Assembly (NCBI RefSeq): GCF_014127285.1
Contig: NZ_CP059901.1
Location: forward strand, 1,488,001-1,552,000
DNA length: 64,000 nt
Direction of reading: 5' to 3'
Source of the DNA: Mumia sp. ZJ1417
GTDB lineage: Bacteria; Actinomycetota; Actinomycetes; Propionibacteriales; Nocardioidaceae
Part shown: positions 31,054-47,117 of the stretch, in pieces
Layout of the letters: the number at the start of each line of letters is the position of its first letter
Position numbering within the stretch: position 1 is the first letter of the stretch
Position numbers and translations under genes: made by a program
The notes under the pieces: model-generated
Databases searched by the model: none
What the model saw: the letters and a program-made list of their open reading frames with translations, nothing else
What the model was told of the DNA's origin: nothing

Positions 31054-31671
31054 TCAGGAGAACAATGCGTTGCCGTACTTCACGACGATCAGGAGAACGA
31101 GAGCCAACAGCCAAGCGATGACGACCATCACGTCGAGGTTCCACTGCACCGCAGAAGACAAGGTTTGCTGTATCCGAGGGGGCAGGTACAGGTTGTTGTC
31201 GCGGATGTTGACACGCGTCATCTCGAAGAAGACGAGCGTGGTGGCGACCGTGATCAGCAGGCACCACGGGCACAGGGCACCGATGTTGAACATCGCCTGG
31301 TAGAACAGCCAGTACGCCAGCGCGAGACCGAGGGTGTAGAAGAGCTGGGCGGCGAGCATGAACCAGCGTTTGAACCTCACGCCGGACAGGGCGGCGACCG
31401 CGATCGTGATGACGACTGGTTCCGCGATCAGCCCGAGAAAGGCGTTGGGGAAGCCGAACACTGAGGCTTGCCACGACGACGCGACGGTGCCGCAGCTGAG
31501 GACTGCGTTGATGTCGCAGCCAAGTTCGGCGCTCGGGTTCTCGGCGAGAGTGATCGCTTCGACGGCGAGCACGAACGAGGCGACGAGGCTGACGATCGAC
31601 GACAGCAGCATCACCACCCAGATGGCGGCGCCGCTGCGGCGCGTCCGATCGACCAGGACGGTAGCGGTCAT
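31054..31671 (-). CDS. Vitamin K epoxide reductase (VKOR) family membrane oxidoreductase
   Basis: 205 residues with four to five transmembrane helices. Active-site cysteines: Cys52 and Cys60 in the loop (GCDINAVLSCGTV) and the quinone-side pair Cys134-Pro-Trp-Cys137. VKOR reoxidises a periplasm-facing DsbA-type thiol oxidase using menaquinone. Its ATG overlaps the stop of the DsbA-like gene (TGATG), so the two are co-translated partners. Confidence 0.93.
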   Translation of the reverse strand: MTATVLVDRTRRSGAAIWVVMLLSSIVSLVASFVLAVEAITLAENPSAELGCDINAVLSCGTVASSWQASVFGFPNAFLGLIAEPVVITIAVAALSGVRFKRWFMLAAQLFYTLGLALAYWLFYQAMFNIGALCPWCLLITVATTLVFFEMTRVNIRDNNLYLPPRIQQTLSSAVQWNLDVMVVIAWLLALVLLIVVKYGNALFS

Positions 31672-32435
31672 CACCTAAGGCCAGAAGCCGCGGCGGTCTC
31701 GATGGCCTTGGTCAGCTCATCGGGGGCGGACCAGTCGCCTGTGAACATGTCCCCATTGAGCTTCACGGTCGGCGTGCTAGTGACGCCGGCGTCGAAGGCC
31801 TCCTGGGTGCTCTGCGCGACCCAGCCACGGTGAACGCCTTCGGTGAAGTTCTCCACCACGTCCGCGGGGACGCCTGCACGGAGGGCGATGCTCGCGATCT
31901 GGTCGTCGTTGAGGCCTTCGGTCCCCTCGTGCGGTTGGTTGGCGTACAGGCCATTGTGGAAAGCCCATACCCTGTCCGGAGCGGCGTCGACAACCGCCGC
32001 GTACGCATTACCGGCGCGGGTGGAGTACTCGGTTCCCTGCGACTGCTCGTCGAGGAAAGCCATCACATGCAGGTTGACACGAATCGTGCCCTGGTCAATG
32101 AGGCGGGAGAGGTCCTCGGCGTTTGTGGACTCGAATGCACCGCAGGCCGGGCACATGTAGTCGTAATACAGGTCGAGAGTCACCGGGGCGTCGGTGTCAC
32201 CAACCGAGAAGGCGCCTGTCTCGACGTTGGCGGGGACTACGACCTTCCCAGTGACGTCTCCGCTGTCGTCGCTGGCTAGGGATCGGCCTACGGCGATGGC
32301 GATCGCGGCCATCAGGCCAAGGATGACCAGGATGCCCACGATCTTGGCGACCTTGCGCTGGCGCGTCTTGCGAGCCAGTTCGGCGGCACGTGCCGCGCGC
32401 ATCTGGCGGGACTTATCTCGGGCCAAGGTGCTCAT
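31671..32435 (-). CDS. Membrane-anchored DsbA-like thioredoxin-fold protein
   Basis: 254 residues. A charged N-terminus, one transmembrane helix (about 31-50), then a thioredoxin-fold domain with Cys95-Pro-Ala-Cys98 (DYMCPACGAF) and the cis-Pro region TSTPTVKLNG. This is the DSBA/Thioredoxin_4 group that introduces disulfides into exported proteins. Codon use is less GC-biased at third positions than in core genes. It lies next to the cupredoxin-rich NirK-type gene, whose copper sites include exported cysteines. Confidence 0.92.
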   Translation of the reverse strand: MSTLARDKSRQMRAARAAELARKTRQRKVAKIVGILVILGLMAAIAIAVGRSLASDDSGDVTGKVVVPANVETGAFSVGDTDAPVTLDLYYDYMCPACGAFESTNAEDLSRLIDQGTIRVNLHVMAFLDEQSQGTEYSTRAGNAYAAVVDAAPDRVWAFHNGLYANQPHEGTEGLNDDQIASIALRAGVPADVVENFTEGVHRGWVAQSTQEAFDAGVTSTPTVKLNGDMFTGDWSAPDELTKAIETAAASGLR

Positions 32436-32554: not shown

Positions 32555-35227
32555 TCATCGGGTCACTTCGAAGGTGCCGTGGGCGCCGCGTTCGGCGTCG
32601 ACCATGACGTGCGACACGAACGGGTAGGTTCCGGGCTCGGGGAAGGTGAGCTCGACGAAGCCACCCTGGGCAGGCCCCAGGCTGAGTGCCTGCGCACCTC
32701 CGTCGCCGTCATCGCGCCGGTCCAGCAGGTAGTCGCCTTCGGCGTACGTGGTGTCGAACTGGCCGCCGACCACATGGAACGAGATCGGCCGGTTGGGGCC
32801 AGCGTCCAAGACCCACACCCTGACCCGCTCCCCGACCTGGGCGCTCAGGGGTGCGTGGTCGTACTGGTTGGCGAAGCCGTTGAACACGACCAGGTCAGGT
32901 TCCTCGGCCGCGAGCTTGGCAACATCGACCTCCCCGCCTTGGTCGCCGAGGTAGAGCTCGGACTGCACCAGCAAGTAGCTGCGATCGACACGCGGCAGGT
33001 CCCGTGGCTCGATCACGACCGCGCCGAAGAGACCGTTGGCGATGTGTGCCGACATTGGCATCGTCGAGCAGTGGTACATCCACACCCCCGCGCGGGTGGC
33101 CCGGAACCGGTAGGTCAGGGACCCACCGGGTGCGATGGTGCGCATCGGACGCTGCGGGGCGAGTGCGCCGGCGTGGAAGTCGATCGAGTGACCGACCGAC
33201 CCGTCATTGGTCAGGGTGATCTCGAACCAGTCGCCAACCCGCCCGTGCAGCACCGGGCCGGGGGAGGTCCCGTCGTAGGTCCACAGACGTTGGGTGACCC
33301 CCGGCGCCACCTCGACCTCGACGTCGCGGACCACGAACGTGCGCCGGTGTACCCGGCTCTTCGACAATGCCGGCAACGCGGCGTCGCGTGCCGCCCAGCC
33401 CGGTGACGGATCGGCCATCAAGTCCAGTTTCTCCGTGGCCGGCGTGGGCTGCGCTTCCGGGTCGTCGTCTGGCGCAGGGGAATCGTCGTCGCTGTGCATA
33501 CCGCCGGGACCGTGCTGGCCGGAGGCGTGACCCTCGGACGTCGCCGCCGGCGCGGAGGGTGCGGTGCCGGAGACATGGACGGTGAGGACCATGCCCATCT
33601 GCTGGTGACCGATGACGGAGCACCATCCGTCGAGGTCGCGACCGACCACGCCGACGTCAACGCGTTTGGTCTGGCCGGGGGAGAGCCGACCGCTGTTTGC
33701 GCCGCTGTCGAGGACCAGGTCGTGGACGTCCTCGTCGTCGGTGTTGGTCAGCACGACCACCAGTCGGTTGCCGGCCGGGACCGAGATGGTGTCGGGGGTG
33801 AAGCGCATGTCGCGGGCCTCGACCTTCACGGTTGTGGTCTCGCCGGTGGCGGCGGCACCGGCCGCGGCGGAGACGGCGTCCCCGGCGCCAATGGCGGCCG
33901 GGTCGACCGCCACGCCCACGGCGACGGCTATCGCCACGGCGGCGAGTCCGGTCGCAGCGAGGCCTGACCTCTGGCCGCTCGGCCGACCCTGAGGCACTCG
34001 AGAGCCAGCCCCGGCAGAAGCCGGGTCGACCTTCGCGCGGCGAGATGCCTTCACGGCCAGGAGCAGCAGCGGCAGCGTGGAGGCCAGCGCACCCAGGACG
34101 AGGATCGAGGCGAGCACCCGGACGGTGCTGGGCACCGGAAGGGCGCAGAGAAGCAGGCCGGCGTTGGTCATCACCAGCCGTAGGGGTGCGCCCCGGTCGA
34201 GGACGGCGTTGGCGGCCCGGACGGGCGTCGGGCCTCCGCCGAGGGCGACCGGGACAAGGTAGGAGAGGGCGCCGAGCAGTACCTGGGCTGCGAAGCCCGC
34301 GGCCAGGAATGGCGTCGCCCAGTCGAACACCTCATCGACGCGCTGCCAGGAGGAGGCGGCACCGATGCCCACCGCGAGGGTGACCATGGTCCCTAGCAGC
34401 CAGGTCAGCCCGGCCAGGACCGACCAGGCCGGGAACGCGGTCGGCGGCTTGCGGCGCAGCGCGTCGACGAACGCGGGTGCGGTCAGGAGCAACCCGGTGA
34501 GGTATCCGGCGATCCCGAGCGCGATGACCGCACGCTGGCCGAGGGCGGCACCACCAGCGGTGAGGAGCACCGAGCCCACCAGCACGGGGAGCGCTCGCGA
34601 CGATGCCCGCTCGGCGCCCTCGGCGATCCGGGTGCGCAGCATGGTCGGCCACAAGGTGATCAGCGTGCCCACCACGGTGAGGCCGACCCAGCCAAGCAGG
34701 TTCACCGCCGCGTGCGCGACGACCAGCCGAGTGTGCCAGGGGTCGTCGAAGCCGCGAGCGAGTGCGGTGCCGAGGCCGGCGCCGACCGGCAGGGAGCACG
34801 CGGCCGCCACGTAGTACCGCACCGAGGGCCCGAACCTGGCAGGCAGCGCGGCACGCAGCTGGCGCAGGATCGTCCAGCCGTGCCAGAGGGCCGCGGAGCC
34901 GACGGCGGACGCACCAAGCAAGGTGAGCGGCCACACACCCGAGGGGACGCCAGCCACCACGAGGATCACGCCGCCGTTGAGCAGCATCAGCCGACGGTTC
35001 TGGCCGCGGCGGTCGTCGTCCGCGGAGTGCAGCAGGGCGTCGGTGAAGTATCTGCTCCAGACGAGGATGGCGTGGCTGACCGCGCCGAGCATGAGCAGGT
35101 GGATCATCAGCCAGCGCGGCGCGGGCACGAACGGGTGCACGACTGCGACCACCACGGTGGCCGCCAACCAGGCCAGCACCGGCAGGTCGCGCAGTGGCCA
35201 GAAGCCACGGCTGCCCCGCTTGGTCAC
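32555..35227 (-). CDS. NirK-type copper protein fused to an N-terminal polytopic membrane domain and an extra cupredoxin
   Basis: 890 residues from GTG 35227, overlapping the upstream stop by 4 bp. Residues 1-395 hold about ten helices with His-bearing segments (HLLMLGAVSHAILVW; VAHAAVNLLGWVGL). Residues 465-552 form a plastocyanin-like type 1 copper site: His502, Cys536, His541, Met546. Residues 620-890 are a two-domain copper nitrite reductase: type 1 ligands His680, Cys720, His728; type 2 ligands His685, His719, His873; active-site Asp683 and His818. The expected axial Met is Leu733. Probable nitrite-to-NO reductase facing outward; the start chosen avoids an upstream shadow frame. Confidence 0.88.
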   Translation of the reverse strand: MTKRGSRGFWPLRDLPVLAWLAATVVVAVVHPFVPAPRWLMIHLLMLGAVSHAILVWSRYFTDALLHSADDDRRGQNRRLMLLNGGVILVVAGVPSGVWPLTLLGASAVGSAALWHGWTILRQLRAALPARFGPSVRYYVAAACSLPVGAGLGTALARGFDDPWHTRLVVAHAAVNLLGWVGLTVVGTLITLWPTMLRTRIAEGAERASSRALPVLVGSVLLTAGGAALGQRAVIALGIAGYLTGLLLTAPAFVDALRRKPPTAFPAWSVLAGLTWLLGTMVTLAVGIGAASSWQRVDEVFDWATPFLAAGFAAQVLLGALSYLVPVALGGGPTPVRAANAVLDRGAPLRLVMTNAGLLLCALPVPSTVRVLASILVLGALASTLPLLLLAVKASRRAKVDPASAGAGSRVPQGRPSGQRSGLAATGLAAVAIAVAVGVAVDPAAIGAGDAVSAAAGAAATGETTTVKVEARDMRFTPDTISVPAGNRLVVVLTNTDDEDVHDLVLDSGANSGRLSPGQTKRVDVGVVGRDLDGWCSVIGHQQMGMVLTVHVSGTAPSAPAATSEGHASGQHGPGGMHSDDDSPAPDDDPEAQPTPATEKLDLMADPSPGWAARDAALPALSKSRVHRRTFVVRDVEVEVAPGVTQRLWTYDGTSPGPVLHGRVGDWFEITLTNDGSVGHSIDFHAGALAPQRPMRTIAPGGSLTYRFRATRAGVWMYHCSTMPMSAHIANGLFGAVVIEPRDLPRVDRSYLLVQSELYLGDQGGEVDVAKLAAEEPDLVVFNGFANQYDHAPLSAQVGERVRVWVLDAGPNRPISFHVVGGQFDTTYAEGDYLLDRRDDGDGGAQALSLGPAQGGFVELTFPEPGTYPFVSHVMVDAERGAHGTFEVTR

Positions 35228-36405
35228 CACGGCCTGCTCATGACCGCTGCTCCCGCCGGGCTCCGTCCGCCGCGGACCGTGCATCCGATAGCGACGGCGA
35301 GGAACGACAGCACGGCCACGATGTTGAGGACCCCCCCGGTGACCCAGGCGCCGTGGCTGCCAAGGGCGTCGCCCACCCAGAGCCGCAACACCAGCGAGGC
35401 GTGCAGAAGCGTGGCTGGCACGATCAGTGCCGGGTGGTAGGGCAGCGGCCGGCGCAGCACCGCGGGGAGGATCACCGGGGCGTGGGCCATGACCATCGAC
35501 AGCGTGAACCCAAGGAACACCGCGTGCAGGACGGCGTCGTAGCGCACGCCCTCCAGGGCCGGACCGCCGAGCAGCCAAATGGCGCCGGCGACGCCCAGCC
35601 AGCAGTACCCGGCCAGCATGCAGCCGGCCATGTAACGGGTCAGGCCCGCAGTGTGGATGGTGCGTCGAGCGACGTCGTGAGCGGCGAGCCAGCCGGTCAG
35701 GGCGATCAGTCCGGCCCCGAGCAGGGCCGTGCCCGGACGCGGCCACAGCAACGCCGCCATCACCGCGGTCACCAGCCCGGAAGCGAGGAGCACCAGCATG
35801 CTGCCCGCCCAGGGGCCCATCGCGATCCGGGCCAGCTCGAGCCGCTCACCGGCGATGGTCAGCACGACGAACCCGACCAGCCACGGTGCCAGGACCGGTA
35901 GAGCGGCGCCGCCCAGCCACAGCACCGCAGACCCGAGGGCGAGCACCGCCCCGAGGGCCTGGACCAGGACCGCGTCGTCGCGCTGACGACGCCACAGCGG
36001 CAGGTACAGACCGACCAGCGCGGCGGAGCCAGCTGCGAGCAGACCTTGCCCGACCACGAGCGGCGCTGGTGAAAGCAGCACCAGGGCGCCGAGGCCGAGC
36101 AGGGCGGGGGCGACGACGCCAAGGGAGCGCCGCAGCGCGACTGCACGCTCCAGGGCGATCAGGGTGCCCACGAAACCGAGGACCATCAGCATGCCGTGTA
36201 CCACGGGCAGCCGGTCGATCTGCACCGGCGCGGGAAGATCGAGGAGCATCAGGGCGGCGTCCAGCCCGGCTAGCAGGGCGATCCCGGCGGAAGCCAGCAA
36301 TGCCGCCCGGGTCACCAGCGAGGCCCGAACCCGGGGAGCGCTGGCGGCGCTTGGGAACCCGGGGGAACTACTTCTGCTGCGAGGGCGGCTGGTGGCGGTG
36401 CTCAT
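35224..36405 (-). CDS. NnrS-like polytopic membrane protein
   Basis: 393 residues, about twelve hydrophobic helices. Recognisable NnrS-like text includes PVVHGMLMVLGFVGTLIALE near 70-90 and HAVFLGFTLSMVMAHAPVIL near 300-320, with conserved histidines that could bind heme or copper. NnrS proteins protect against nitrosative stress in denitrifiers. The ATG overlaps the stop of the regulator gene and the gene's own stop overlaps the NirK-type start, so the three form one tight leftward operon. Confidence 0.85.
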   Translation of the reverse strand: MSTATSRPRSRSSSPGFPSAASAPRVRASLVTRAALLASAGIALLAGLDAALMLLDLPAPVQIDRLPVVHGMLMVLGFVGTLIALERAVALRRSLGVVAPALLGLGALVLLSPAPLVVGQGLLAAGSAALVGLYLPLWRRQRDDAVLVQALGAVLALGSAVLWLGGAALPVLAPWLVGFVVLTIAGERLELARIAMGPWAGSMLVLLASGLVTAVMAALLWPRPGTALLGAGLIALTGWLAAHDVARRTIHTAGLTRYMAGCMLAGYCWLGVAGAIWLLGGPALEGVRYDAVLHAVFLGFTLSMVMAHAPVILPAVLRRPLPYHPALIVPATLLHASLVLRLWVGDALGSHGAWVTGGVLNIVAVLSFLAVAIGCTVRGGRSPAGAAVMSRPW

Positions 36406-37115
36406 CTGTTCCGTCGCATCAGGTGCAAGCGGCACGCGCCGGGCTCAGCGAACGGCAGCAGGTCGGTGCCCTCGGGGTCCGCGCCGTACTCCTCCAGCGC
36501 GCCCTGGGCGAGCCCGAGGTGCACGCCGCAGACGACATCGGGATACTTGTGGGCCGCCTCCAGCAGCGGGCAGCGGGTGAGCCGAACCACCGAGCTGCGG
36601 GCGTCGGCCTGCGGCCCGAAGCCGATCTCGTCGAGCAGGGAGACCACCTCACGCCTAGCCGCAACCGCACTCGGGGACGGTCCGCCGCCCCGCTCGCGTG
36701 CGAGCTCGTGCCCCCACTCCCGTCCGGCGGCGAGCGCGTCGTCGGACGGTGAGGTGCTAGTCGAATGGATCGACGCCGCCAGCGCCGCAGCGAGCCCCGC
36801 GTACTCATGGTCGGCGGCGGCGTCGCTGCCCGTGGCCTCGTACAGCCAGGCCGGACGGCCGCGGCCGTCCGGCTCCGCCGGATAGCGGTGGGCGAGACCC
36901 TGGCGCACCAGTGCGTCGAGGTGTTCGCGGACCGTGTTGGCATGCAGCCTGGAGATGGCGACGAGCGCCGCGAGCGTCGTGGGCTCGGTTTGGGACCGCA
37001 GCGTCTCCAAGAGCGCGGCCCGCGACCTGGACAGCGGCGCACGCTCTCGTCCAGCGCCAGGTCGGGGTCCGTAGCCCGGTGCCGGTCTCGACGGGAGAGG
37101 CCCATTATTTTCCAC
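36402..37115 (-). CDS. Helix-turn-helix regulator with three C-terminal cysteines, possible Fe-S/NO sensor
   Basis: 237 residues from GTG 37115; the frame extends far upstream only as a shadow of the divergent gene. The winged helix is at about 30-95 (LAALVAISRLHANTVREHLD, GLAHRYPAEPDGRGRPAWLY). The C-terminal part has Cys182 (TRCPLLEAA), Cys196 (DVVCGVHLG) and Cys228 (GACRLHL), resembling SufR-type Fe-S regulators. No Shine-Dalgarno precedes the start, so the message may be leaderless. As first gene of the nirK operon and divergent from hemerythrin, it is the likely local controller. Confidence 0.8.
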   Translation of the reverse strand: MENNGPLPSRPAPGYGPRPGAGRERAPLSRSRAALLETLRSQTEPTTLAALVAISRLHANTVREHLDALVRQGLAHRYPAEPDGRGRPAWLYEATGSDAAADHEYAGLAAALAASIHSTSTSPSDDALAAGREWGHELARERGGGPSPSAVAARREVVSLLDEIGFGPQADARSSVVRLTRCPLLEAAHKYPDVVCGVHLGLAQGALEEYGADPEGTDLLPFAEPGACRLHLMRRNR

Positions 37116-37139
37116 GGAGTGCAGTGTAATAAAATTATG
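37103..37139. promoter_or_regulatory. AT-rich dyad between the regulator and hemerythrin genes
   Basis: CATTATTTT (37103-37111) and AAAATTATG (37131-37139) are inverted repeats (8 of 9 match) around 19 nt. This is the most AT-rich spot in the neighbourhood and overlaps the regulator's start codon. TAAAAT (37130-37135) could be a -10 box for the rightward genes. Binding of the Cys-rich regulator here would control both directions. Confidence 0.5.
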
Positions 37140-37178
37140 TCGAGGTTGCCAAACCAGGCCACTGAAGGAGACACGAAC

Positions 37179-37982
37179 ATGTCCGAACTCGTCATCGCCT
37201 CGAGCGAGGCCGACGCCCACGCCGCCGAGGCGATCAAGCAACACCACGCCGCCCTGGCCGGCGCCCTGAGCCTGCGCACCGAGGCGCTGTTGACGGCCGC
37301 CACCCGATGCGATGCCTCCGCGGCCGAAGAGGCTCGCCGGGACCTGGTGGACTGGGGCCGGCACGAACTGATGCCCCATGCCCTGGCCGAGGAGCAGGCG
37401 ATGTACCCGGCCGCGCACGCGACGGTCGAGGGGCACCTGCTGGTCGAGGCGATGCTCGGTGAGCACCAGGTCCTCTCTGGGCTGTTGCGCGAGGTAGCCG
37501 ACTCGGACGACCTGTTGCGTGCCGCCGCGACGGCCACGGCGCTGCGTGCGGTCTTCGACTCCCACCTGACCAAGGAGAACGACCTGGTGGTACCGCTGCT
37601 GGCCGCGACCCCCGAGGTCTCGCTGCATGACCTGCTCGGTGGCATGCATCAACTCCTCGGCGATGCGGCAGAGACCTCGAGCACTGATGCGCTCGACCTC
37701 GACAGCGGCTGCGGTGGCCACACCTGCTCGTGCGGTGAGGTCGACGGCCCCGGGTACCCCGAACTCGATGTGCGGCCCGTCCCGCATGCGATCCGGCACG
37801 CAACGATCTTCGGGGCATTGGAGTCGGTCCAGCCGGGCAACGGCCTGACGCTGATCGCTCCCCACGACCCACTCCCGCTGTTGGACCAGGTGAACCAGCG
37901 CTGGCCAGGGATCTTCTCAGTGGCCTATACCGAACGGGGCCCTGAGGCATGGCGGCTCAACCTGGTTCGTGCCAATGCATGA
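37179..37982 (+). CDS. Hemerythrin-like protein fused to DUF2249
   Basis: 267 residues; AAGGAG 8 nt before ATG. Residues 15-150 form a hemerythrin HHE four-helix bundle with iron-ligand-like His and Glu residues (IKQHHAALAGAL, WGRHELMPHALAEEQ, EHQVLSGLL, SHLTKENDLVVPLL). Residues 190-267 are a DUF2249 domain (ELDVRPVPHAIRHATIF, LTLIAPHDPLPLLDQVN). Proteins of this type are linked to NO and denitrification regulation (RIC/YtfE- and NorV-like contexts). A likely NO or oxygen buffering protein upstream of narK. Confidence 0.88.
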   Translation: MSELVIASSEADAHAAEAIKQHHAALAGALSLRTEALLTAATRCDASAAEEARRDLVDWGRHELMPHALAEEQAMYPAAHATVEGHLLVEAMLGEHQVLSGLLREVADSDDLLRAAATATALRAVFDSHLTKENDLVVPLLAATPEVSLHDLLGGMHQLLGDAAETSSTDALDLDSGCGGHTCSCGEVDGPGYPELDVRPVPHAIRHATIFGALESVQPGNGLTLIAPHDPLPLLDQVNQRWPGIFSVAYTERGPEAWRLNLVRANA

Positions 37983-38055
37983 GAGTGTCCCTGGCGGCAT
38001 TGAGAACAACATCGACCATGGTGGAGATCGAGACGATCTCGGGAGGACGACGACG

Positions 38056-39321
38056 ATGACAACACCCGCCCATGCCGACCGTGTCCGCGAGGGCGTTGGT
38101 TCGCCGTGGCTGATGCTCGCGATGGCCACTCTGGGCTTTGCGGTCAACTTCTGGGCCTGGGCGCTGATCAGCCCGCTCGGACCATTGTTCCGCGACACCG
38201 GCGCCCTCGGCTCGCTCAGCGAGTCCGACGTGGCCCTGTTGGTCGCGGTGCCTGTGATCGTGGGCTCGCTGGGCCGGATCGTGGTTGGCGCGCTGACCGA
38301 CCGGCTCGGCGGCCGGGTGATGTTCCCGATCATCTCGGGCGTGACGATCGTTCCCATCCTGTTCATCGCCTTTTTCGCGCTCGACTCCTACGCGCTGCTG
38401 TTGGTGGGCGGATTCTTCCTGGGCATAGCCGGCACCGCGTTCGCAGTCGGAGTGCCGTTCGTGAACTCCTGGTTTCCCCCTGAGCGCCGGGGCCTGGCGA
38501 TCGGAATCTTCGGCGCCGGCATGGGCGGCACCGCGATCAGCGCCTTGACCACGGTCAAGCTGTTCAACAACGTGAGTTCCAAGGCGCCGTTCTTGATCAC
38601 CGCGGGCGTCTTGGCCCTCTACGCGGTCGCCGCATGGCTGGTCCTGCGCGACGCACCCGGCCGAACCACCCCCACCACCTCGCTGGCCAGCCGACTCGCG
38701 GCCAACGCCAAGCTGCCCATCTCCTGGCAGGCCTGCGTGCTGTACGCCGTCGCCTTCGGCGGGTACGTCGCGTTCTCGGTGTACCTGCCCGCCTACCTCA
38801 AGACCGCCCATGGGCTGACACCGGCAGACGCCGCGAACCGGATGGCCGGCTTCGTCGTGGTCGCCGTGATCATGCGCCCGGTCGGCGGCTGGCTCTCCGA
38901 CCGGTTCGGCTCCATCCCGGTGCTCGCGACCGGCTACGGCGTGGTGGTCGTCTGTGCCGCGGTCTCGGCCGGCACGCCGCCGCTCGACGGTGTCGGCACG
39001 GTGGTCTTCCTCGCCATGGCCGCGGCGCTGGGCAGCGGAAGCGGGGCGACGTTCGCTCTGATCGCCCAGGTGACCGACCCGTCGCGGGTCGGCGGCGTGA
39101 CCGGACTGGTGGGCGCCGCAGGCGGTCTCGGCGGCTTCGTGCCGCCGCTGCTCATGGGCTACGTCTATGGCCGCACCGACTCCTACGCGATCGGCCTCTG
39201 GCTGCTCTCGATCACCGCGGCACTGACTTTGGTCCTGACCCTGACGCTCGTCCGACGCACAGCACGCACCCACGGAGCCACCAACGAGCACACAGTCCCA
39301 GCGACGCCTGCACCTCAGTGA
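38056..39321 (+). CDS. narK: Nitrate/nitrite MFS transporter, NarK type
   Basis: 421 residues, twelve transmembrane helices. The two nitrate-signature Gly-rich helices are present: GGFFLGIAGTAFAVGVPFVN with SWFPPERRGLAIGIFGAG, and GGVTGLVGAAGGLGGFVPPL. Also the MFS loop GALTDRLGGR. It imports nitrate and/or exports nitrite for NarGHI. A weak GGGAGG lies upstream. It starts 73 bp after the hemerythrin gene and is followed by narG after a 51-bp gap, so all may share one message. Confidence 0.93.
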   Translation: MTTPAHADRVREGVGSPWLMLAMATLGFAVNFWAWALISPLGPLFRDTGALGSLSESDVALLVAVPVIVGSLGRIVVGALTDRLGGRVMFPIISGVTIVPILFIAFFALDSYALLLVGGFFLGIAGTAFAVGVPFVNSWFPPERRGLAIGIFGAGMGGTAISALTTVKLFNNVSSKAPFLITAGVLALYAVAAWLVLRDAPGRTTPTTSLASRLAANAKLPISWQACVLYAVAFGGYVAFSVYLPAYLKTAHGLTPADAANRMAGFVVVAVIMRPVGGWLSDRFGSIPVLATGYGVVVVCAAVSAGTPPLDGVGTVVFLAMAAALGSGSGATFALIAQVTDPSRVGGVTGLVGAAGGLGGFVPPLLMGYVYGRTDSYAIGLWLLSITAALTLVLTLTLVRRTARTHGATNEHTVPATPAPQ

Positions 39322-39372: not shown

Positions 39373-42300
39373 GTGAGCAATGAGACCCACCCCGACGCTC
39401 GGAACGGTCGCGAGATCGGTATGGACGGAGGGCTCAGTGATGCGCTGGTACGCAGCCGACGCTACTTCACCAGGGGGACGGTCTCCGACGACCTACGAGC
39501 GCTGGTCAAGACCGGCGGCCGGGACGCGGACTCGTTCTACCGGGACCGCTGGAGCCACGACAAGGTCGTGCGTTCGACCCACGGCGTGAACTGCACGGGG
39601 TCGTGCTCGTGGAAGGTCTACGTCAAGGACGGGATCATCACCTGGGAGACCCAGCAGACCGACTACCCCTCGGTCGGGCCGGACTCCCCGGAGTACGAGC
39701 CCCGTGGTTGTCCCCGTGGTGCGGCGTTCTCCTGGTACACCTATTCGCCCACGCGGGTGCGCTACCCCTACGTCCGCGGCGTGCTGCTCCAGATGTACCG
39801 CGAGGCCAAGTCCCAGCACGGCGGCGACCCCGTCAAGGCCTGGGCGCACATCGTCGATAACCCCCAGCGCGCCAAGGCCTACAAGTCCGCCCGCGGCAAG
39901 GGCGGCCTGGTCCGGGCCACCTGGGACGAGGCCACCGAGATGGTCGCCGCCGCCTACGTGCACACGATCCAGAAGTGGGGCCCCGACCGGGTCGCCGGCT
40001 TCTCGCCGATCCCGGCGATGTCGATGGTCTCGCACGCCTCCGGCGCGCGGTTCACGTCATTGGTCGGCGGGTCGATGCTGAGCTTCTACGACTGGTATGC
40101 CGACCTGCCGGTGGCCTCTCCTCAGGTCTTCGGTGACCAGACGGACGTCCCGGAGTCTGGAGACTGGTGGGACGCGGGTTATCTGATCATGTGGGGCTCC
40201 AACGTCCCGGTCACCCGCACGCCCGACGCGCACTGGATGGCCGAGGCCCGCTACCGCGGCCAGAAGGTCGTCGTGGTCGCGCCTGACTACGCCGACAACG
40301 TGAAGTTCGCCGACGAGTGGCTGGCCATCGCCCCCGGCACCGACGGCGCCCTGGCGATGTCGATGGGCCACGTCATCCTCAAGGAGTTCTTTGTCGACCG
40401 GCAGACGCCCTACTTCACCGACTACACGAAGAAGTTCACCGACCTGCCCTACCTCGTCTCCCTCGACGAAGTGGCCGACGCGGCGGGCACCTACCGGGCT
40501 GGCAAGTTCCTTACCGCCGCCGACCTGCCCGCGCACGCCGCCGAGGAGAACGCGCATTTCAAGACCGTCCTCCTCGACGCCCGGACCAACCAGCCGGTGG
40601 TGCCCAACGGCTCTCTCGGCGACCGCTACGGAGATGCCGGCGTCGGCAAGTGGAACCTCGACCTCGGAGACGTCGACCCGCGGCTGAGCGTGCTGGAGCC
40701 CGGCTGCGAGACCGTCTCGCTCGAGTTGCCGCGCTTCGACGACGTCGACGGGACACCTGGCTCGCTGCCACGTGACGTCCCGGTGCGCCGCATCGGCGAC
40801 CGCCTGGTCACCACCGTCTTCGACCTGATGCTCGCCCAGTACGGCGTGGGCCGCGACGGCCTCGCCGGCTACGCCACGTCCTACGACGACGCGACGGCGC
40901 CCTACACGCCCGCGTGGCAGGAGTCGATCACCAACGTCCCCGCCTCGGCCGCCGCTCGGATCGCCCGCGAGTTCGCACAGAACGCCGAGGACTCCAAGGG
41001 TCGCTCGATGATCCTGATGGGCGCCGGCACCAACCACTGGTTCCACTCCGACACGATCTACCGCGGCTTCCTCGGGCTGACCACGCTCACCGGCTGCCAG
41101 GGCGTCAACGGCGGCGGCTGGGCGCACTACGTCGGCCAGGAGAAGTGCCGCCCGGTGACCGGCTGGGCCCAACTCGCCTTCGGCCTCGACTGGAACCGTC
41201 CGCCGCGGCAGATGATCCACACCGCCTACTGGTACCTCCACACCGACCAGTTCCGCTACGACACCTTCGGCGCCGACACCGTCGCCGCCAAGACCGGCAG
41301 CGGACTGCTGGCCGGGATGAGCACCGCCGACGTGATCGCCAAGAGCGCGCGCATGGGCTGGATGCCGTCCTACCCGACGTTCAACCGCAACCCGCTCGAC
41401 GTCGCCGACGAGGCGGCCGCAGCCGAGCGGCCGGTCGCCGAGCATGTCGTCGACCAGCTCAAGTCCGGCGACCTGCGGTTCGCCGCCGAAGACCCGGACT
41501 CGCCCGAGAACTTCCCGAGGGTGCTCGCGATCTGGCGAGCCAACCTGCTCGGTTCGTCGGGCAAGGGCAACGAGTACTTCCTCAAGCACCTCCTCGGCAC
41601 CGACAGCTCACTGCGAGCCGGCGAGGCCTCGGAGGGCCAGCGGCCGCAGGAGGTGGAGTGGCACGACGGCGCTCCTGAGGGCAAGCTCGACCTGCTGCTC
41701 ACCCTCGACTTCCGCCAGACCAGCACGACGATCTTCAGCGACGTCGTGCTGCCGGCGGCCACGTGGTACGAGAAGCACGACCTCAACACCACCGACATGC
41801 ACCCGTTCATCCACTCGTTCAACCCCGCGATCGCGCCGCCTTGGCAGACCCGCACCGACTGGGACGCCTGGCAGACGATCGCGACCAAGTTCAGCGAGCT
41901 CGCGGCCGGGCGCCTCGACACTCGCACGGACGTCGTCGCGGTCCCGCTGCTGCACGACACCCCTGACGCGATGGCCAACCCGCACGGCGTGGTACGCGAC
42001 TGGAAGCACGGCGAGTGCGAGCCGATTCCTGGCGTCACGATGCCCAAGATCGTCGAGGTCGAGCGCGACTACACCGCGGTCGGCGACAAGATGCAGGCCC
42101 TCGGGCCGCTGCTCGAGAAGCTCGGCACCACCACCAAGGGCGTCACCTACGACGTCACGAAATCGGTCGACTACCTGCTCCACAAGAACGGAGCCGTCCG
42201 CGGTGGCGCGGCCGACGGTCGTCCCTCCCTGGTCAAGGATGTGCACGCCTGCGAGGCGATCCTGGCCCTGTCGGGAACCACCAACGGCCACCTGGCCACC

Positions 42301-43098
42301 CAGGGCTTCAAGACCCTGGAGAAGCGCACCGGCCACCTGCTGCACGACCTGGCCGCCGAGCACGAGGGCAAGCAGATCACCTTCGCCGACACGGTCGCCG
42401 CGCCGGTGCCGGTGATCACCTCACCGGAGTGGTCCGGGTCGGAGACCGGCGGGCGGCGCTACTCGCCGTTCACGATCAACGTCGAGCGCCTCAAGCCATG
42501 GCACACGCTGACCGGGCGCCAGCACTTCTACCTCGACCACGACTGGATGACCGAGCTCGGCGAGGGCCTGCCGGTCTACCGGCCACCGCTCAACATGGGT
42601 GCGCTGTTCAGCGAGCCGGAGATCGGCGACGTCGGCGAGCTGGGGGTCACGGTCCGTTACCTGACACCGCACAACAAGTGGTCGATCCACTCGGAGTACC
42701 AGGACAACCTGTTCATGCTTTCGCTCTCCCGCGGTGGCCAGACGATCTGGATGAGCGATCAGGACGCCGCCAAGGTCGGCGTCGTCGACAACGACTGGAT
42801 CGAGGCGGTCAACCGTAACGGCGTCGTCGTCGCCCGCGCGATCGTCTCCCACCGCATGCCCGAAGGGACCGTCTACATGCACCACGCCCAGGACCGGTTG
42901 ATCGACGTACCCATCGCGGAAACGTCGGGGAAGCGGGGCGGCGTCCACAACTCGCTGACCCGGATCCTGGTCAAGCCCAGCCACGTCATTGGTGGCTACG
43001 CCCAGCTGGCATTCGCGTTCAACTACCTCGGCCCCACAGGCAACCAGCGCGACGAGGTCACTGTCATCCGCAAGCGCAACCAGGAGGTGACCTACTGA
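39373..43098 (+). CDS. narG: Respiratory nitrate reductase, alpha subunit
   Basis: 1241 residues from GTG 39373 (AAGGACGAG upstream). It holds the Mo-bisMGD active site reducing nitrate to nitrite on the cytosolic face. The FS0 cluster ligands are His70, Cys74, Cys78 and Cys113, with the same spacing as E. coli His49/Cys53/Cys57/Cys92. The Mo ligand is Asp240 (SFYDWYADLP; E. coli Asp222). No Tat signal is present, as usual for cytosolic-side Nar. Full length; stop overlaps narH start (TGATG). Confidence 0.97.
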   Translation: MSNETHPDARNGREIGMDGGLSDALVRSRRYFTRGTVSDDLRALVKTGGRDADSFYRDRWSHDKVVRSTHGVNCTGSCSWKVYVKDGIITWETQQTDYPSVGPDSPEYEPRGCPRGAAFSWYTYSPTRVRYPYVRGVLLQMYREAKSQHGGDPVKAWAHIVDNPQRAKAYKSARGKGGLVRATWDEATEMVAAAYVHTIQKWGPDRVAGFSPIPAMSMVSHASGARFTSLVGGSMLSFYDWYADLPVASPQVFGDQTDVPESGDWWDAGYLIMWGSNVPVTRTPDAHWMAEARYRGQKVVVVAPDYADNVKFADEWLAIAPGTDGALAMSMGHVILKEFFVDRQTPYFTDYTKKFTDLPYLVSLDEVADAAGTYRAGKFLTAADLPAHAAEENAHFKTVLLDARTNQPVVPNGSLGDRYGDAGVGKWNLDLGDVDPRLSVLEPGCETVSLELPRFDDVDGTPGSLPRDVPVRRIGDRLVTTVFDLMLAQYGVGRDGLAGYATSYDDATAPYTPAWQESITNVPASAAARIAREFAQNAEDSKGRSMILMGAGTNHWFHSDTIYRGFLGLTTLTGCQGVNGGGWAHYVGQEKCRPVTGWAQLAFGLDWNRPPRQMIHTAYWYLHTDQFRYDTFGADTVAAKTGSGLLAGMSTADVIAKSARMGWMPSYPTFNRNPLDVADEAAAAERPVAEHVVDQLKSGDLRFAAEDPDSPENFPRVLAIWRANLLGSSGKGNEYFLKHLLGTDSSLRAGEASEGQRPQEVEWHDGAPEGKLDLLLTLDFRQTSTTIFSDVVLPAATWYEKHDLNTTDMHPFIHSFNPAIAPPWQTRTDWDAWQTIATKFSELAAGRLDTRTDVVAVPLLHDTPDAMANPHGVVRDWKHGECEPIPGVTMPKIVEVERDYTAVGDKMQALGPLLEKLGTTTKGVTYDVTKSVDYLLHKNGAVRGGAADGRPSLVKDVHACEAILALSGTTNGHLATQGFKTLEKRTGHLLHDLAAEHEGKQITFADTVAAPVPVITSPEWSGSETGGRRYSPFTINVERLKPWHTLTGRQHFYLDHDWMTELGEGLPVYRPPLNMGALFSEPEIGDVGELGVTVRYLTPHNKWSIHSEYQDNLFMLSLSRGGQTIWMSDQDAAKVGVVDNDWIEAVNRNGVVVARAIVSHRMPEGTVYMHHAQDRLIDVPIAETSGKRGGVHNSLTRILVKPSHVIGGYAQLAFAFNYLGPTGNQRDEVTVIRKRNQEVTY

Positions 43099-44843
43099 TG
43101 AAGGTCATGGCGCAGATGGCGATGGTGATGAACCTCGACAAGTGCATCGGCTGCCACACCTGCTCGGTCACGTGCAAGCAGGCGTGGACCAACCGCACCG
43201 GCACCGAGTACGTCTGGTTCAACAACGTCGAGACCCGGCCCGGGCAGGGCTATCCCCGCACCTACGAGGACCAGGAGCGGTGGAAGGGCGGCTGGGAGCT
43301 CAACAAGCGCGGCCGGCTCAAGCTGAAGGCCGGCGGGCGGTTCAAGAAGCTCGCCACGATCTTCTCCAACCCGAAGATGCCCTCGATCCAGGACTACTAC
43401 GAGCCCTGGACCTACGACTACGCCACGCTGACCGACGCCCCGGCCCAGGAGCACACACCGGTCGCCCGGCCCAAGTCCCTGCTCACCGGCAAGGACATGA
43501 AGATCACCTGGTCGTCGAACTGGGACGACAACCTCGGCGGCTCCGCGGCCACGCTCGAGCACGACCCGATGCTCAAGAAGATCGCCGACAAGGTGAAGTT
43601 CGAGTTCGAGCAGACCTTCATGTTCTACCTGCCACGGATCTGCGAGCACTGCCTCAACCCCTCGTGCGCCGCGTCCTGCCCCAGCGGAGCGATCTACAAA
43701 CGAGAGGAGGACGGCATCGTCCTCGTCGACCAGGACCGCTGCCGCGGCTGGCGCATGTGCATCTCCGGCTGCCCGTACAAGAAGATCTACTTCAACCACA
43801 AGACCGGCAAGGCCGAGAAGTGCACGTTCTGCTTCCCGCGGATCGAGGTCGGCCTGCCCACCGTCTGCGCCGAGACCTGCGTCGGTCGGCTGCGCTACAT
43901 CGGCCTGATGCTCTACGACGCCGACAAGGTGCTCGAGGCAGCGACCACGACCGACGAGCACGGGCTCTACGAGGCTCAGCGCGAGGTCTTCCTCGATCCC
44001 AACGACCCCGAGGTCCAGCGGGAGGCCGAGAGGGCCGGGATCCCGCGGGACTGGGTGCAGGCCGCCCAGCGGTCGCCGATCTACGCGCTGATCAGCCGGT
44101 TCAAGGTGGCACTGCCGCTGCACCCGGAGTACCGCACGATGCCGATGGTCTGGTACATCCCACCGCTCTCGCCGGTCGTCGACGTGGTCAAGGACACCGG
44201 CTACGACGCCGAGGACAAAGGCAACCTGTTCGCCGCCATCGACGCGCTCCGGATCCCGATCGAGTACCTCGCCGAGCTCTTCACCGCCGGCGACGTCGCT
44301 CCCGTCGACGGGGTGCTGAAGAAGCTGGCCGCCATGCGCTCCTACATGCGTGACATCAACATGGGTCGCGAGTCCGACGCCTCGATCCCGGCGGCCGTCG
44401 GGATGACCGAGGAGGAGATGTACGACATGTACCGCCTACTCGCCATCGCCAAGTACGACGAGCGCTACGTGATCCCCCCGGCGCACGCCGAGCAGGCGCA
44501 CTCCCTGGAGGAGTTGGGCACCGAGTGCTCGGTCTCCCAGTACGGCGGCGGACAGCAGGGCCTCTTCGGTGAGGGCTCAGGCTCCCCGGTGCCGATCGCC
44601 GTGGAGAACTTCCAGATGCTCCAGGACCGGCAGACCGCCGACACGGTCGCCTCGCCGGCCGACAAGACCGCCCGGGTGAACCTGCTCAACTGGGACGGCA
44701 AGGGCGCACCCAGCGGCCTGTTCCCGCCCGGACCCGACGGACCGGGGCCTGACCCGGACACCTCGCCGCCGGACACGGGAAGTGACGGGGCAACGGGTCC
44801 CGGCGGCAGTGCTGGTCTCACCGGAGGGGCTGACCACCGATGA
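43098..44843 (+). CDS. narH: Respiratory nitrate reductase, beta (iron-sulfur) subunit
   Basis: 581 residues. Four ferredoxin-type motifs carry electrons from NarI to NarG: Cys16, Cys19, Cys22 and Cys26 at exactly the E. coli positions (CIGCHTCSVTC), CEHCLNPSCAASCP, CRGWRMCISGCP (Trp in place of Cys, giving the [3Fe-4S] cluster) and CTFC...C...C. The C-terminus has a Pro/Gly/Asp-rich tail of about 40 residues that looks disordered. ATG/TGA overlaps on both sides show translational coupling with narG and narJ. Confidence 0.97.
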   Translation: MKVMAQMAMVMNLDKCIGCHTCSVTCKQAWTNRTGTEYVWFNNVETRPGQGYPRTYEDQERWKGGWELNKRGRLKLKAGGRFKKLATIFSNPKMPSIQDYYEPWTYDYATLTDAPAQEHTPVARPKSLLTGKDMKITWSSNWDDNLGGSAATLEHDPMLKKIADKVKFEFEQTFMFYLPRICEHCLNPSCAASCPSGAIYKREEDGIVLVDQDRCRGWRMCISGCPYKKIYFNHKTGKAEKCTFCFPRIEVGLPTVCAETCVGRLRYIGLMLYDADKVLEAATTTDEHGLYEAQREVFLDPNDPEVQREAERAGIPRDWVQAAQRSPIYALISRFKVALPLHPEYRTMPMVWYIPPLSPVVDVVKDTGYDAEDKGNLFAAIDALRIPIEYLAELFTAGDVAPVDGVLKKLAAMRSYMRDINMGRESDASIPAAVGMTEEEMYDMYRLLAIAKYDERYVIPPAHAEQAHSLEELGTECSVSQYGGGQQGLFGEGSGSPVPIAVENFQMLQDRQTADTVASPADKTARVNLLNWDGKGAPSGLFPPGPDGPGPDPDTSPPDTGSDGATGPGGSAGLTGGADHR

Positions 44844-45553
44844 GAACCCGCAGTCGAACCGGGCTAGGCCCCCGAGAGCAAACCGTCGCCTGGCAGGCGA
44901 CGTCCCTGCTGCTCGGCTACCCCGACGAAGAGCTCCTTGGCCGGCTCGACCTGGTCCGAGGGGCCTCGCACGAGCTTCCCGACCGGGTGGGGGAGCCGCT
45001 GCGGGCCTGCGTCACCAGCCTCGAAGGGGTGCCGCTGACCGAGCTGGAGAGCGACTACGTCGAGACCTTCGACACCCGGCGTCGGCACAACCTGTTCCTC
45101 ACCTACTTCGCCCACGGCGACACTCGCAAGCGCGGGATGGCGTTGCTCCGGTTCAAGCAGACCTATCTCGCATCCGGCTTCGAACTGACCGACACCGAGC
45201 TGCCCGACCACCTGTGCGTCGTGCTGGAGTACGCCGCCACCATCGACCACGAGCAGGGTCGCCAGCTGCTGCTCGACCACCGGGCCGGTCTCGAGCTGCT
45301 GCGCATCGCGCTCGGCGATTCCGGCTCTCGCTGGGCCGGCGCCGTCGAGGCGGTCACCGCCACGCTGCCGCCGCTGCAGGGCGACGAGTGGGACGCCGTA
45401 CGACGGCTCGCGGCCGAGGGGCCGCCCGACGAGGAGGTCGGCCTCACGCCGTACGAGACTCCCGCCTTCGATCCGGGCCCGGCCCGACCCGACGGACCGG
45501 TCTCGCTGCCGATGCCGGCCTTCCGCGCACCGACCACCCGAGGAGCACGCTGA
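44840..45553 (+). CDS. narJ: Nitrate reductase molybdenum cofactor assembly chaperone
   Basis: 237 residues of the NarJ/TorD all-helical fold. Signature segments: ATSLLLGYPDEELL (about 20-34), ELESDYVETFDTRRRHNLFL and YFAHGDTRKRGMALL (about 75-115), and DHLCVVLEYAA. It binds apo-NarGH and promotes cofactor insertion and membrane attachment. The Pro-rich C-terminal 40 residues are probably unstructured. Starts within the narH stop (ATGA) and ends within the narI start (TGATG). Confidence 0.95.
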   Translation: MRTRSRTGLGPREQTVAWQATSLLLGYPDEELLGRLDLVRGASHELPDRVGEPLRACVTSLEGVPLTELESDYVETFDTRRRHNLFLTYFAHGDTRKRGMALLRFKQTYLASGFELTDTELPDHLCVVLEYAATIDHEQGRQLLLDHRAGLELLRIALGDSGSRWAGAVEAVTATLPPLQGDEWDAVRRLAAEGPPDEEVGLTPYETPAFDPGPARPDGPVSLPMPAFRAPTTRGAR

Positions 45554-46284
45554 TGGATGTCTTCCTGTGGGTGATCGTGCCCTACCTGTGCCTTGCGACG
45601 TTCGTGGTCGGCCACTTCTGGCGCTACCGCTACGACAAGTTCGGCTGGACCACACGGTCCTCGCAGCTCTACGAGGACCGGCTGCTGCGCATCGGAAGCC
45701 CGCTGTTCCACTTCGGGATGCTCGGCGTCGTCGGCGGCCACGTCATCGGCCTGCTAGTGCCACGGTCGTGGACCGCCGCAGTCGGCATCGACGACCACCT
45801 CTACCACTACGTCGCCGTCGTCGGCGGCCTGATCGCCGGCGTCCTCGCTTTGGTCGGGATGGTCATCCTGATCTACCGCCGACGCACGGTGGGACCCGTC
45901 TTCTCCGCGACAACGGTGATGGACAAGGTGATGTACCTCTTCCTGGCCGTCGTGATCGCGCTGGGCATGTGGAACACGATCGCCGGATCCATCTTCACCA
46001 TCGGCGGGGAGTACAACTACCGCGAGGGAGTCTCCGTCTGGTACCGCTCGTTCCTCGCGTTCCAGCCCGACGCCGAACTCATGGCCGAAGCGCCCATCGG
46101 CTTCCAGCTGCACGCCCTGACGGCCTTCGGACTGTTCGCGCTGTGGCCCTTCACCCGGCTGGTGCACGTGTTCAGCGCCCCGGTCGGGTACCTCACCCGC
46201 CCCTACATCGTTTACCGCACCCGAGACGACGCCACGCTCGGTAGCCATGCGCCCCGACGAGGCTGGGACCGGATCTCGAAATGA
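45553..46284 (+). CDS. narI: Respiratory nitrate reductase, gamma (cytochrome b) subunit
   Basis: 243 residues, five transmembrane helices. The four heme b ligands are at His53 and His63 (SPLFHFGMLGVVGGHVIG) and His187 and His205 (GFQLHALTAF; RLVHVFSAP). The last two share the E. coli numbering exactly. It oxidises menaquinol and feeds NarH. The ATG of the next gene overlaps its stop, so the CBS-cupin protein belongs to this operon. Confidence 0.96.
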   Translation: MDVFLWVIVPYLCLATFVVGHFWRYRYDKFGWTTRSSQLYEDRLLRIGSPLFHFGMLGVVGGHVIGLLVPRSWTAAVGIDDHLYHYVAVVGGLIAGVLALVGMVILIYRRRTVGPVFSATTVMDKVMYLFLAVVIALGMWNTIAGSIFTIGGEYNYREGVSVWYRSFLAFQPDAELMAEAPIGFQLHALTAFGLFALWPFTRLVHVFSAPVGYLTRPYIVYRTRDDATLGSHAPRRGWDRISK

Positions 46285-47117
46285 GTCGGCTGAGTGCCAT
46301 CGGCCACCGCCCTGGCGAGCTTGAGCCCGAGGAGGCTGATTGGCCTTCGCGCCGCGTCCACCAGGCTGTTGACGTCATGATCAGCACCCCCAAGACGTTG
46401 CCTGCCCGAGCCTCGGTCGACGACGCCCGAGCCGTCATGGCCGACGACCATGTGCACATGGTGCTCTTGACCCACGGCGACAAGCTCTGTGGAACGTTGG
46501 TTCGCACGGACCTGCCCCCTGCAGGATCCGGCCACGAGCCCGCGCTCCGCTGGGCGGTTCTGCCTGGCCGAACCGTGCCCCCGGAAGCCCCAGCCGCTCT
46601 CGTTCAGGCGAGGCTGATCCGCCACAAGATGCGCCGACTGGCTGTGATCGATGCCGACCACACCCTCCTTGGCCTGGTTTGCCTCAAGCGCTCCCGGTCG
46701 GGCTTCTGCTCCGACGCCGGCGTCGCCGCACGAGCAAGTGCAACTGCCGCGCACACGATGATGGAGATCCACATGAACGACACCTCTCTGACCGCCCTCG
46801 CTGAGGAACACCTCGCTACCGCGCACGAGCACAGCGCCGGTCGCAGCGCGCACACCGTGTACGGCGGGCAGGGCCGCGCGCTGCGCCAAACCCTGATCGC
46901 GCTCGTCGCGGGTCGCCGTCTCGGCGAGCACGAGAGCCCGGGTGAGGCCACGCTGCAGGTACTTCGCGGCTCGGTCAGGCTGCACGCCGGTGAGGACACA
47001 TGGGACGGCAGCGCGGGCGACCACCTCGTGATCCCGCCCGCGCGCCACGACTTGGAGGCCCTTGAAGATGCAGTGGTACTGCTGACCGTCGCCCTGCACG
47101 GCGTGCCGGGAAACTGA
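46281..47117 (+). CDS. CBS-pair and cupin fusion protein in the nar operon
   Basis: 278 residues, starting in the narI stop (ATGA). Residues 25-150 contain two CBS-like motifs (AVDVMISTPKTLPARASVDD; ALVQARLIRHKMRRLAVID). Residues 165-278 are a cupin barrel (LVAGRRLGEHESPGEATLQV, GDHLVIPPARHDLEAL). An internal ATG at 46773 with GGAG 6 nt upstream could also make a free 114-residue cupin. CBS pairs often bind adenosyl nucleotides; cupins of this sort bind metal or small ligands. A sensory or stress role tied to nitrate respiration is inferred. Confidence 0.8.
   Translation: MSRLSAIGHRPGELEPEEADWPSRRVHQAVDVMISTPKTLPARASVDDARAVMADDHVHMVLLTHGDKLCGTLVRTDLPPAGSGHEPALRWAVLPGRTVPPEAPAALVQARLIRHKMRRLAVIDADHTLLGLVCLKRSRSGFCSDAGVAARASATAAHTMMEIHMNDTSLTALAEEHLATAHEHSAGRSAHTVYGGQGRALRQTLIALVAGRRLGEHESPGEATLQVLRGSVRLHAGEDTWDGSAGDHLVIPPARHDLEALEDAVVLLTVALHGVPGN

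Follow-up and report, generated by a model that had tools for sequence, protein, structure and literature searches.

In a window of 64,000 nucleotides from the soil-type actinobacterium Mumia sp. ZJ1417 (contig NZ_CP059901.1, positions 1,488,001 to 1,552,000; the genome is one 4.19-Mb contig), we analysed a nirK gene whose copper nitrite reductase module is fused to a membrane domain and an extra cupredoxin. Its product is very probably a membrane nitrite reductase with a built-in cupredoxin, judging from its sequence and predicted structure; the membrane domain is predicted to adopt the fold of heme-copper oxidase subunit I, and the axial residue of the NirK type 1 copper has alternated repeatedly between Met and Leu within the family. 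The gene is a single open frame of 890 residues on the minus strand (window positions 32555-35227, counted from a GTG), and this GTG is a putative start since the frame remains open farther upstream. The parts of the chain are:

32555..35227, minus strand: fused nirK, 890 amino acids (aa), putative GTG start at 35227, stop at 32555-32557
34031..35218, minus strand: membrane domain of 12 helices, residues 4-399, predicted heme-copper oxidase subunit I fold
33905..33979, minus strand: 13th helix, residues 417-441, an anchor taking the chain outside (topology and structure prediction)
33569..33838, minus strand: cupredoxin, residues 464-553, type 1 site H502/C536/H541/M546 (Cupredoxin_1, E 3e-11; ligands in 108/108)
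33428..33562, minus strand: linker, residues 556-600, of low confidence (predicted local distance difference test, pLDDT, <50)
32558..33388, minus strand: NirK module, residues 614-890, two cupredoxin domains with type 1 and type 2 copper
33029..33031, minus strand: Leu733, axial position of the NirK type 1 copper (family alignment)

This fused layout was confirmed, and every residue named in a preliminary description of the locus stands as given in the 890-residue chain. The ten membrane helices counted there were wrong, the prediction giving 12 helices and the 13th as an anchor. The positive-inside rule, applied to the predicted topology, makes the copper domains face outward, so that both cupredoxin parts would lie outside, as had been supposed, and not in the cytosol. 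Pfam matches in the protein were obtained for Cupredoxin_1 (residues 456-525) and Cu-oxidase_3/2.

The NirK module matched TIGR02376 (copper nitrite reductase) at residues 628-888 with 163.7 bits (E 6.8e-48), short of the curated cut-off of 296.3 bits, which is an annotation threshold and no biochemical criterion, and AniA with E 6.7e-45. It has the two-cupredoxin fold of NirK, all three His ligands of the type 2 copper (H685, H719 and H873), AspCAT (D683) and HisCAT (H818); its type 1 site comprises H680, C720 and H728, the adjacent H719 and C720 forming the His-Cys bridge to the type 2 copper. The HxH/HCH pattern of the laccase trinuclear site is incomplete, HSIDFH being present and HCS replacing HCH. 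Conservation was assessed in 108 family open reading frames (ORFs) of at least 780 aa, which remained from 111 sequences (110 loci and the window) after three short ones were dropped, near-duplicates being kept. H502, C536, H541 and M546 of the extra cupredoxin and H728 of NirK occur in 108/108; H680, C720, H685, H719 and D683 in 107/108, with one gap each; H873 in 106/108, with two gaps; and H818 in 106/108, the exceptions being one Asp and one gap. With the type 2 ligands, AspCAT and HisCAT kept in homologues and HCH missing, the assignment to NirK rather than to laccases, made in the preliminary description, held. Near full-length matches were found in 22 of 196 other genomes searched within the bacterial family and in none of the five listed genomes of the same genus, and the closest named relative among the matches listed is Nocardioides guangzhouensis (83% identity). 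The ratio of nonsynonymous to synonymous substitution rates (Ka/Ks) was 0.21 against one close relative and 0.26 against another, which, together with the TIGR02376 and AniA scores and the matches in 22 of 196 genomes, excludes chance.

Leu733 replaces the usual axial Met of the NirK type 1 site, as first proposed from the window alone. At this position the 108 ORFs have Met (72), Leu (35) or a gap (1), and the 96 non-redundant members Met (69) or Leu (27). On a quick LG+G4 tree, built with column 733 left out and supported by the Shimodaira-Hasegawa-like approximate likelihood ratio test (SH-aLRT) only, a minimum of 10 Met/Leu changes is needed, seven of which are forced by well-supported branches alone; on the alignment and tree, the axial switch is natural and recurrent in this family. 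No residue covarying with the axial Leu was found, the next best column reaching a total variation of 0.72 (vs 1.0) and differing in just one of nine contrasted pairs. All four unfused NirKs that adjoin standalone membrane genes (see below) carry the axial Met, suggesting that Met is probably the ancestral state. The Met144Leu variant of AxNiR gained 96 mV in type 1 potential, to +336 mV, and about 70% in azurin-driven activity (PMC13324648), and by analogy Leu733 would raise the potential here, in line with the preliminary description. Axial Met is usual and not defining for NirK, since the axial ligand of Thermus scotoductus TsNirK is naturally Gln (PMC6400189). We found no natural Leu-axial NirK in the literature searched, which is weak evidence of absence.

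Structure comparison of the predicted model gave residues 4-399 the 12-helix fold of heme-copper oxidase subunit I, with matches at 9% identity to 3mk7_A, 8smr_E and 9g6b_A, which we take to be catalytic subunits of cbb3 oxidases; the VIA-align list holds mostly NirK-type chains and barely covers alternative folds for residues 1-450. By sequence, neither Pfam nor NCBIfam matches the first 400 residues, and a PDB search with their profile gave nothing significant (a lone match at chance level, E 0.51). PF00115 did not match the window protein and matched relatives weakly (1 of 24 members, E 3.9e-5, under the cut-off; 2 of 43, best E 0.0014). NnrS and the heme-copper oxidases had both been named as families with which to compare residues 1-395; the oxidases stood, by structure, and NnrS fell (no Pfam match, PF05940 included; hhalign probability 0.4% against nine NnrS). 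NnrS gave no match in the Mumia genome, nor in the control genomes, and across the phylum one in 198 genomes (E 1.5e-4, under the cut-off). Kinship to cNorB by sequence was likewise rejected (hhalign 0.3%, two cNorB sequences only), and matches to SCO2097_fam of NCBIfam (17 of 43 members, best E 1.5e-4, window protein none) and 7TMR-DISM_7TM (1 of 24 members, E 8.7e-4) were taken as compositional.

Ligands of the membrane domain were compared across 96 fused members and in an alignment holding 20 standalone members, and two His residues are common to both:

35099..35101, minus strand: His43, helix 2, invariant in 96/96 fused members and 24/24 in the alignment with standalone members
34712..34714, minus strand: His172, helix 6, invariant in 96/96 fused members and 24/24 in the alignment with standalone members

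W20, W39, W57, W276 and R350 are also invariant in the 96 fused members, Gln315 in helix 10 is kept in 95/96, and in the fused members only, His116 is invariant and His31 kept in 95/96. Heme-copper oxidases bind the low-spin heme through His in helices 2 and 10; helices 6 and 7 supply the CuB/FeB ligands, and helix 10 also a heme ligand. By helix number only, His43 may correspond to the ligand of the oxidase low-spin heme and His172 to one of the CuB ligands; of the low-spin heme pair H43 is the sole representative, with no conserved helix-10 His, and of the remaining set H172 in helix 6 is. In contrast to the cbb3 oxidase chains, the actinobacterial domain is fused to copper domains, and its helices 7 and 10 contain no His that is conserved. 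From the model and the alignments, the membrane domain is an oxidase relative by fold and neither an oxidase nor a nitric oxide (NO) reductase by ligands.

A profile of the membrane domain, run against 396 genomes of the phylum, matched in 54. Eight of the nine best matches are fusions, the window included, and one is the domain alone; many weaker matches are separate frames of 400-650 codons. Twenty loci with a separate membrane gene were fetched with their flanks, and in four (L127, L132, L135 and L141) an unfused nirK adjoins it. A hypothetical protein of 450 aa on a Rhizobium phaseoli plasmid (L146:8050-9402; no Pfam family) is distant kin of the domain (hhalign 76%) and sits between two DUF2249 genes, in a cluster holding nirK, nnrS, a cbb3-type subunit, and NorQ-like and VWA genes. 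The unfused nirK neighbours, the fusions and this kin in a denitrification cluster support the view that the domain acts near nitrite/NO metabolism, in a role they do not fix.

The gene directly upstream of nirK, here called the partner gene, overlaps the nirK start with its stop by four bases (GTGA):

35224..36435, minus strand: partner gene, polytopic, about 400 aa, no Pfam family

Neighbourhoods were counted in the best 80 of at least 572 relatives, in loci extending no more than 10 kb to either side. The partner lies directly upstream of nirK in 68 of the 80 named loci (tblastn), a share that may be lower farther out since these are the best relatives. Residues conserved in 69 aligned partners, to rounding, are H80, E96, R97, R150, E197, R198, E200, D254, H304, M314, H318 and R351, and an in-frame stop is present in two of the partner stretches translated. 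Comparison of the membrane domain with the partner gave hhalign 24%.

In Sporosarcina beigongshangi, on a contig assigned to Bacillota, the complete fusion (54% identity) and its upstream partner are both present; the sequence groups inside the actinobacterial tree, reflecting either cross-phylum transfer or contamination. The full fusion is also present in Intrasporangium chromatireducens Q5-1 (54% identity), a species said to have no known dissimilatory nitrogen genes (PMC6349771), so that annotation may be missing fused NirKs.

Past the partner, the gene order is:

36765..37982, plus strand: ORF with hemerythrin and DUF2249 domains (Pfam)
37969..39321, plus strand: NarK-like nitrate/nitrite transporter (TIGR00886, 183.8 bits, below the cut-off of 311.7)
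39373..46284, plus strand: narGHJI, respiratory nitrate reductase (TIGR01580, 1652.9 bits; Pfam for narH, narJ and narI)
46281-47117, plus strand: CBS-domain and cupin protein, overlapping the end of narI
47138-48283, plus strand: cytochrome P450 (Pfam p450, 72.7 bits; no NCBIfam model above cut-off)

PF00115 matches just once in the genome, and the profile therefore recognises no second NO reductase of the oxidase type. The P450 comes after narGHJI and the CBS/cupin gene in a genome without a recognised oxidase-type NO reductase. Directly downstream of nirK lie genes for a VKOR-family protein and a DsbA-like thioredoxin (31054-32435, minus strand), homologues of which are near nirK in just one and two of the 80 loci, respectively.

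As a whole explanation, we favour, with somewhat better than even confidence, a membrane-anchored, outward-facing copper nitrite reductase with an internal relay. Nitrite from the neighbouring NarGHI would be reduced to NO by the anchored NirK, whose type 1 copper would receive electrons from the N-terminal cupredoxin, a transfer that we consider reasonably likely. The oxidase-fold domain, probably with the partner, would keep this donor at the membrane. Menaquinol electrons may reach the cupredoxin via a non-canonical heme on the helix-2 and helix-6 His, or a cytochrome bc complex may load it; direct feeding of NirK by quinol is doubtful. Leu733 would give the catalytic type 1 copper a higher potential and thereby make electron transfer from the cupredoxin more favourable. 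In the most far-reaching form, which we put forward only tentatively and regard as improbable, an oxidase fold stripped of O2/NO chemistry would serve as the module through which electrons enter from the membrane, making up a menaquinol:nitrite oxidoreductase with the partner; its heme site would be new (candidate ligands His43/His172, plus His31/His116 in the fused lineage), NirK would draw directly on the quinol pool, bypassing the bc complex and soluble carriers, and repeated Met/Leu switching would tune the type 1 potential up or down.

Several results weigh against the relay or its membrane donor. Hyphomicrobium NirK, the closest case with a solved structure, has its N-terminal copper about 24 Å away (PMC7201279), and a mutant of that enzyme is more active than the wild type (as cited in PMC4770552). 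Heme-tethered RpNiR Met148Leu lost 40-70% of its activity with an artificial reductant (PMC13324648), which, set against the gain in AxNiR, indicates that the effect of Leu depends on the donor. The 96 fused members have no conserved helix-7 HH or helix-10 HxH motif, which predicts neither a dinuclear site nor a low-spin heme of the ordinary kind. The model of the whole chain has a low predicted template modelling score (pTM 0.60). The partner is unmatched in 12 of the 80 loci, three of them with less than 1.2 kb of upstream sequence, and a profile found no diverged partner in these 12; NarG matches occur in 9/80 and NarK in 4/80, so nitrate reductase is no constant neighbour. No NirK-profile match is present in the fetched flank of 15 of the 20 standalone loci, a few of which have a cupredoxin match, and in L125 the multicopper-type neighbour matches the NirK profile but lacks NirK motifs. 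Neighbours of the standalone genes show no pattern (10 proteins from nine loci: three without a match, seven of mixed families, including COX1 at L131, E 3.7e-19).

Neisseria AniA is held at the membrane by a lipid anchor, and the oxidase-fold domain might be a cofactor-free anchor holding NirK outside while the bc complex feeds the built-in cupredoxin. The missing helix-7 and helix-10 His suit this reading, as do the authors' placement of the I. calvum NirK downstream of the bc1 complex (PMC6349771) and the actinobacterial NirKs of about 500 aa without a membrane domain (Decleyre 2016, PMC4770552), for whose bearers the domain must be dispensable; a passive anchor, however, need not keep eight residues (W20, W39, H43, W57, H116, H172, W276 and R350) invariant, nor does it need a conserved 12-helix fold and a partner, and we judge it possible but unlikely. 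That the domain reduces or buffers the NO made by NirK, as a NorB-like NO reductase in the same chain, is suggested by the oxidase fold, the lone PF00115 match in the genome, the likeness to the rhizobial hypothetical protein and the lack of Nor in many genomes of NirK clades 2-4, the clades to which actinobacterial NirKs belong (PMC10999283); without the HH and HxH motifs the known scheme leaves no catalytic dinuclear site, and no profile similarity to the two cNorB sequences was seen, making this very unlikely. Least credible of all is a small two-domain laccase-like multicopper oxidase with a coincidental NirK look, a reading at odds with the retained AspCAT, HisCAT and type 2 His, with HCS in place of HCH, and with the fact that Met outnumbers Leu at the axial position within this family.

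Most actinobacterial NirKs fall in one large clade, which is prevalent in all biomes but geysers (PMC10999283). The predicted oxidase fold, the two candidate heme ligands, the conserved partner and the recurrent Met/Leu switch make the question of the electron donor directly testable, and the Met/Leu pairs found in nature parallel an experiment that has until now relied on mutagenesis. A survey demanding an axial Met, like the 2016 one, would lose 27 of the 96 sequences.

An actinobacterial NirK of about 900 aa with a membrane domain and an N-terminal cupredoxin had been published by 2016 (Decleyre 2016, PMC4770552). By that description, the window protein shares with the Propionibacterium acnes-type NirK the order of parts, the size, the membrane domain of about 400 aa, the CX4HX4M cupredoxin motif and the NirK module. 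In the same work the membrane domain was left as of unknown function, and the axial Met was checked in every sequence before use, so its set should hold no Leu members; the passages concerned do not mention the partner gene, which is present at the window locus. The three-domain NirK of Hyphomicrobium denitrificans (2dv6, 6tfo and 6tfd) likewise has an N-terminal cupredoxin and a NirK core, aligned with residues 461/462-890, but is a hexamer without a membrane domain; our model superposes on it only at a root-mean-square deviation as large as 27 Å, the domain arrangement being different or not fixed by the model. TsNirK also combines an extra cupredoxin with a natural non-Met axial ligand, but its cupredoxin is C-terminal and its ligand Gln, not Leu (PMC6400189). 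AxNiR Met144Leu and RpNiR Met148Leu carry the same substitution at the same site as Leu733, but are laboratory variants, whereas in the fused NirK family Leu is natural and recurrent. The architecture itself is thus already known, and the oxidase fold, the partner, the standalone form of the domain and the recurrent Leu look new, going beyond the literature searched.
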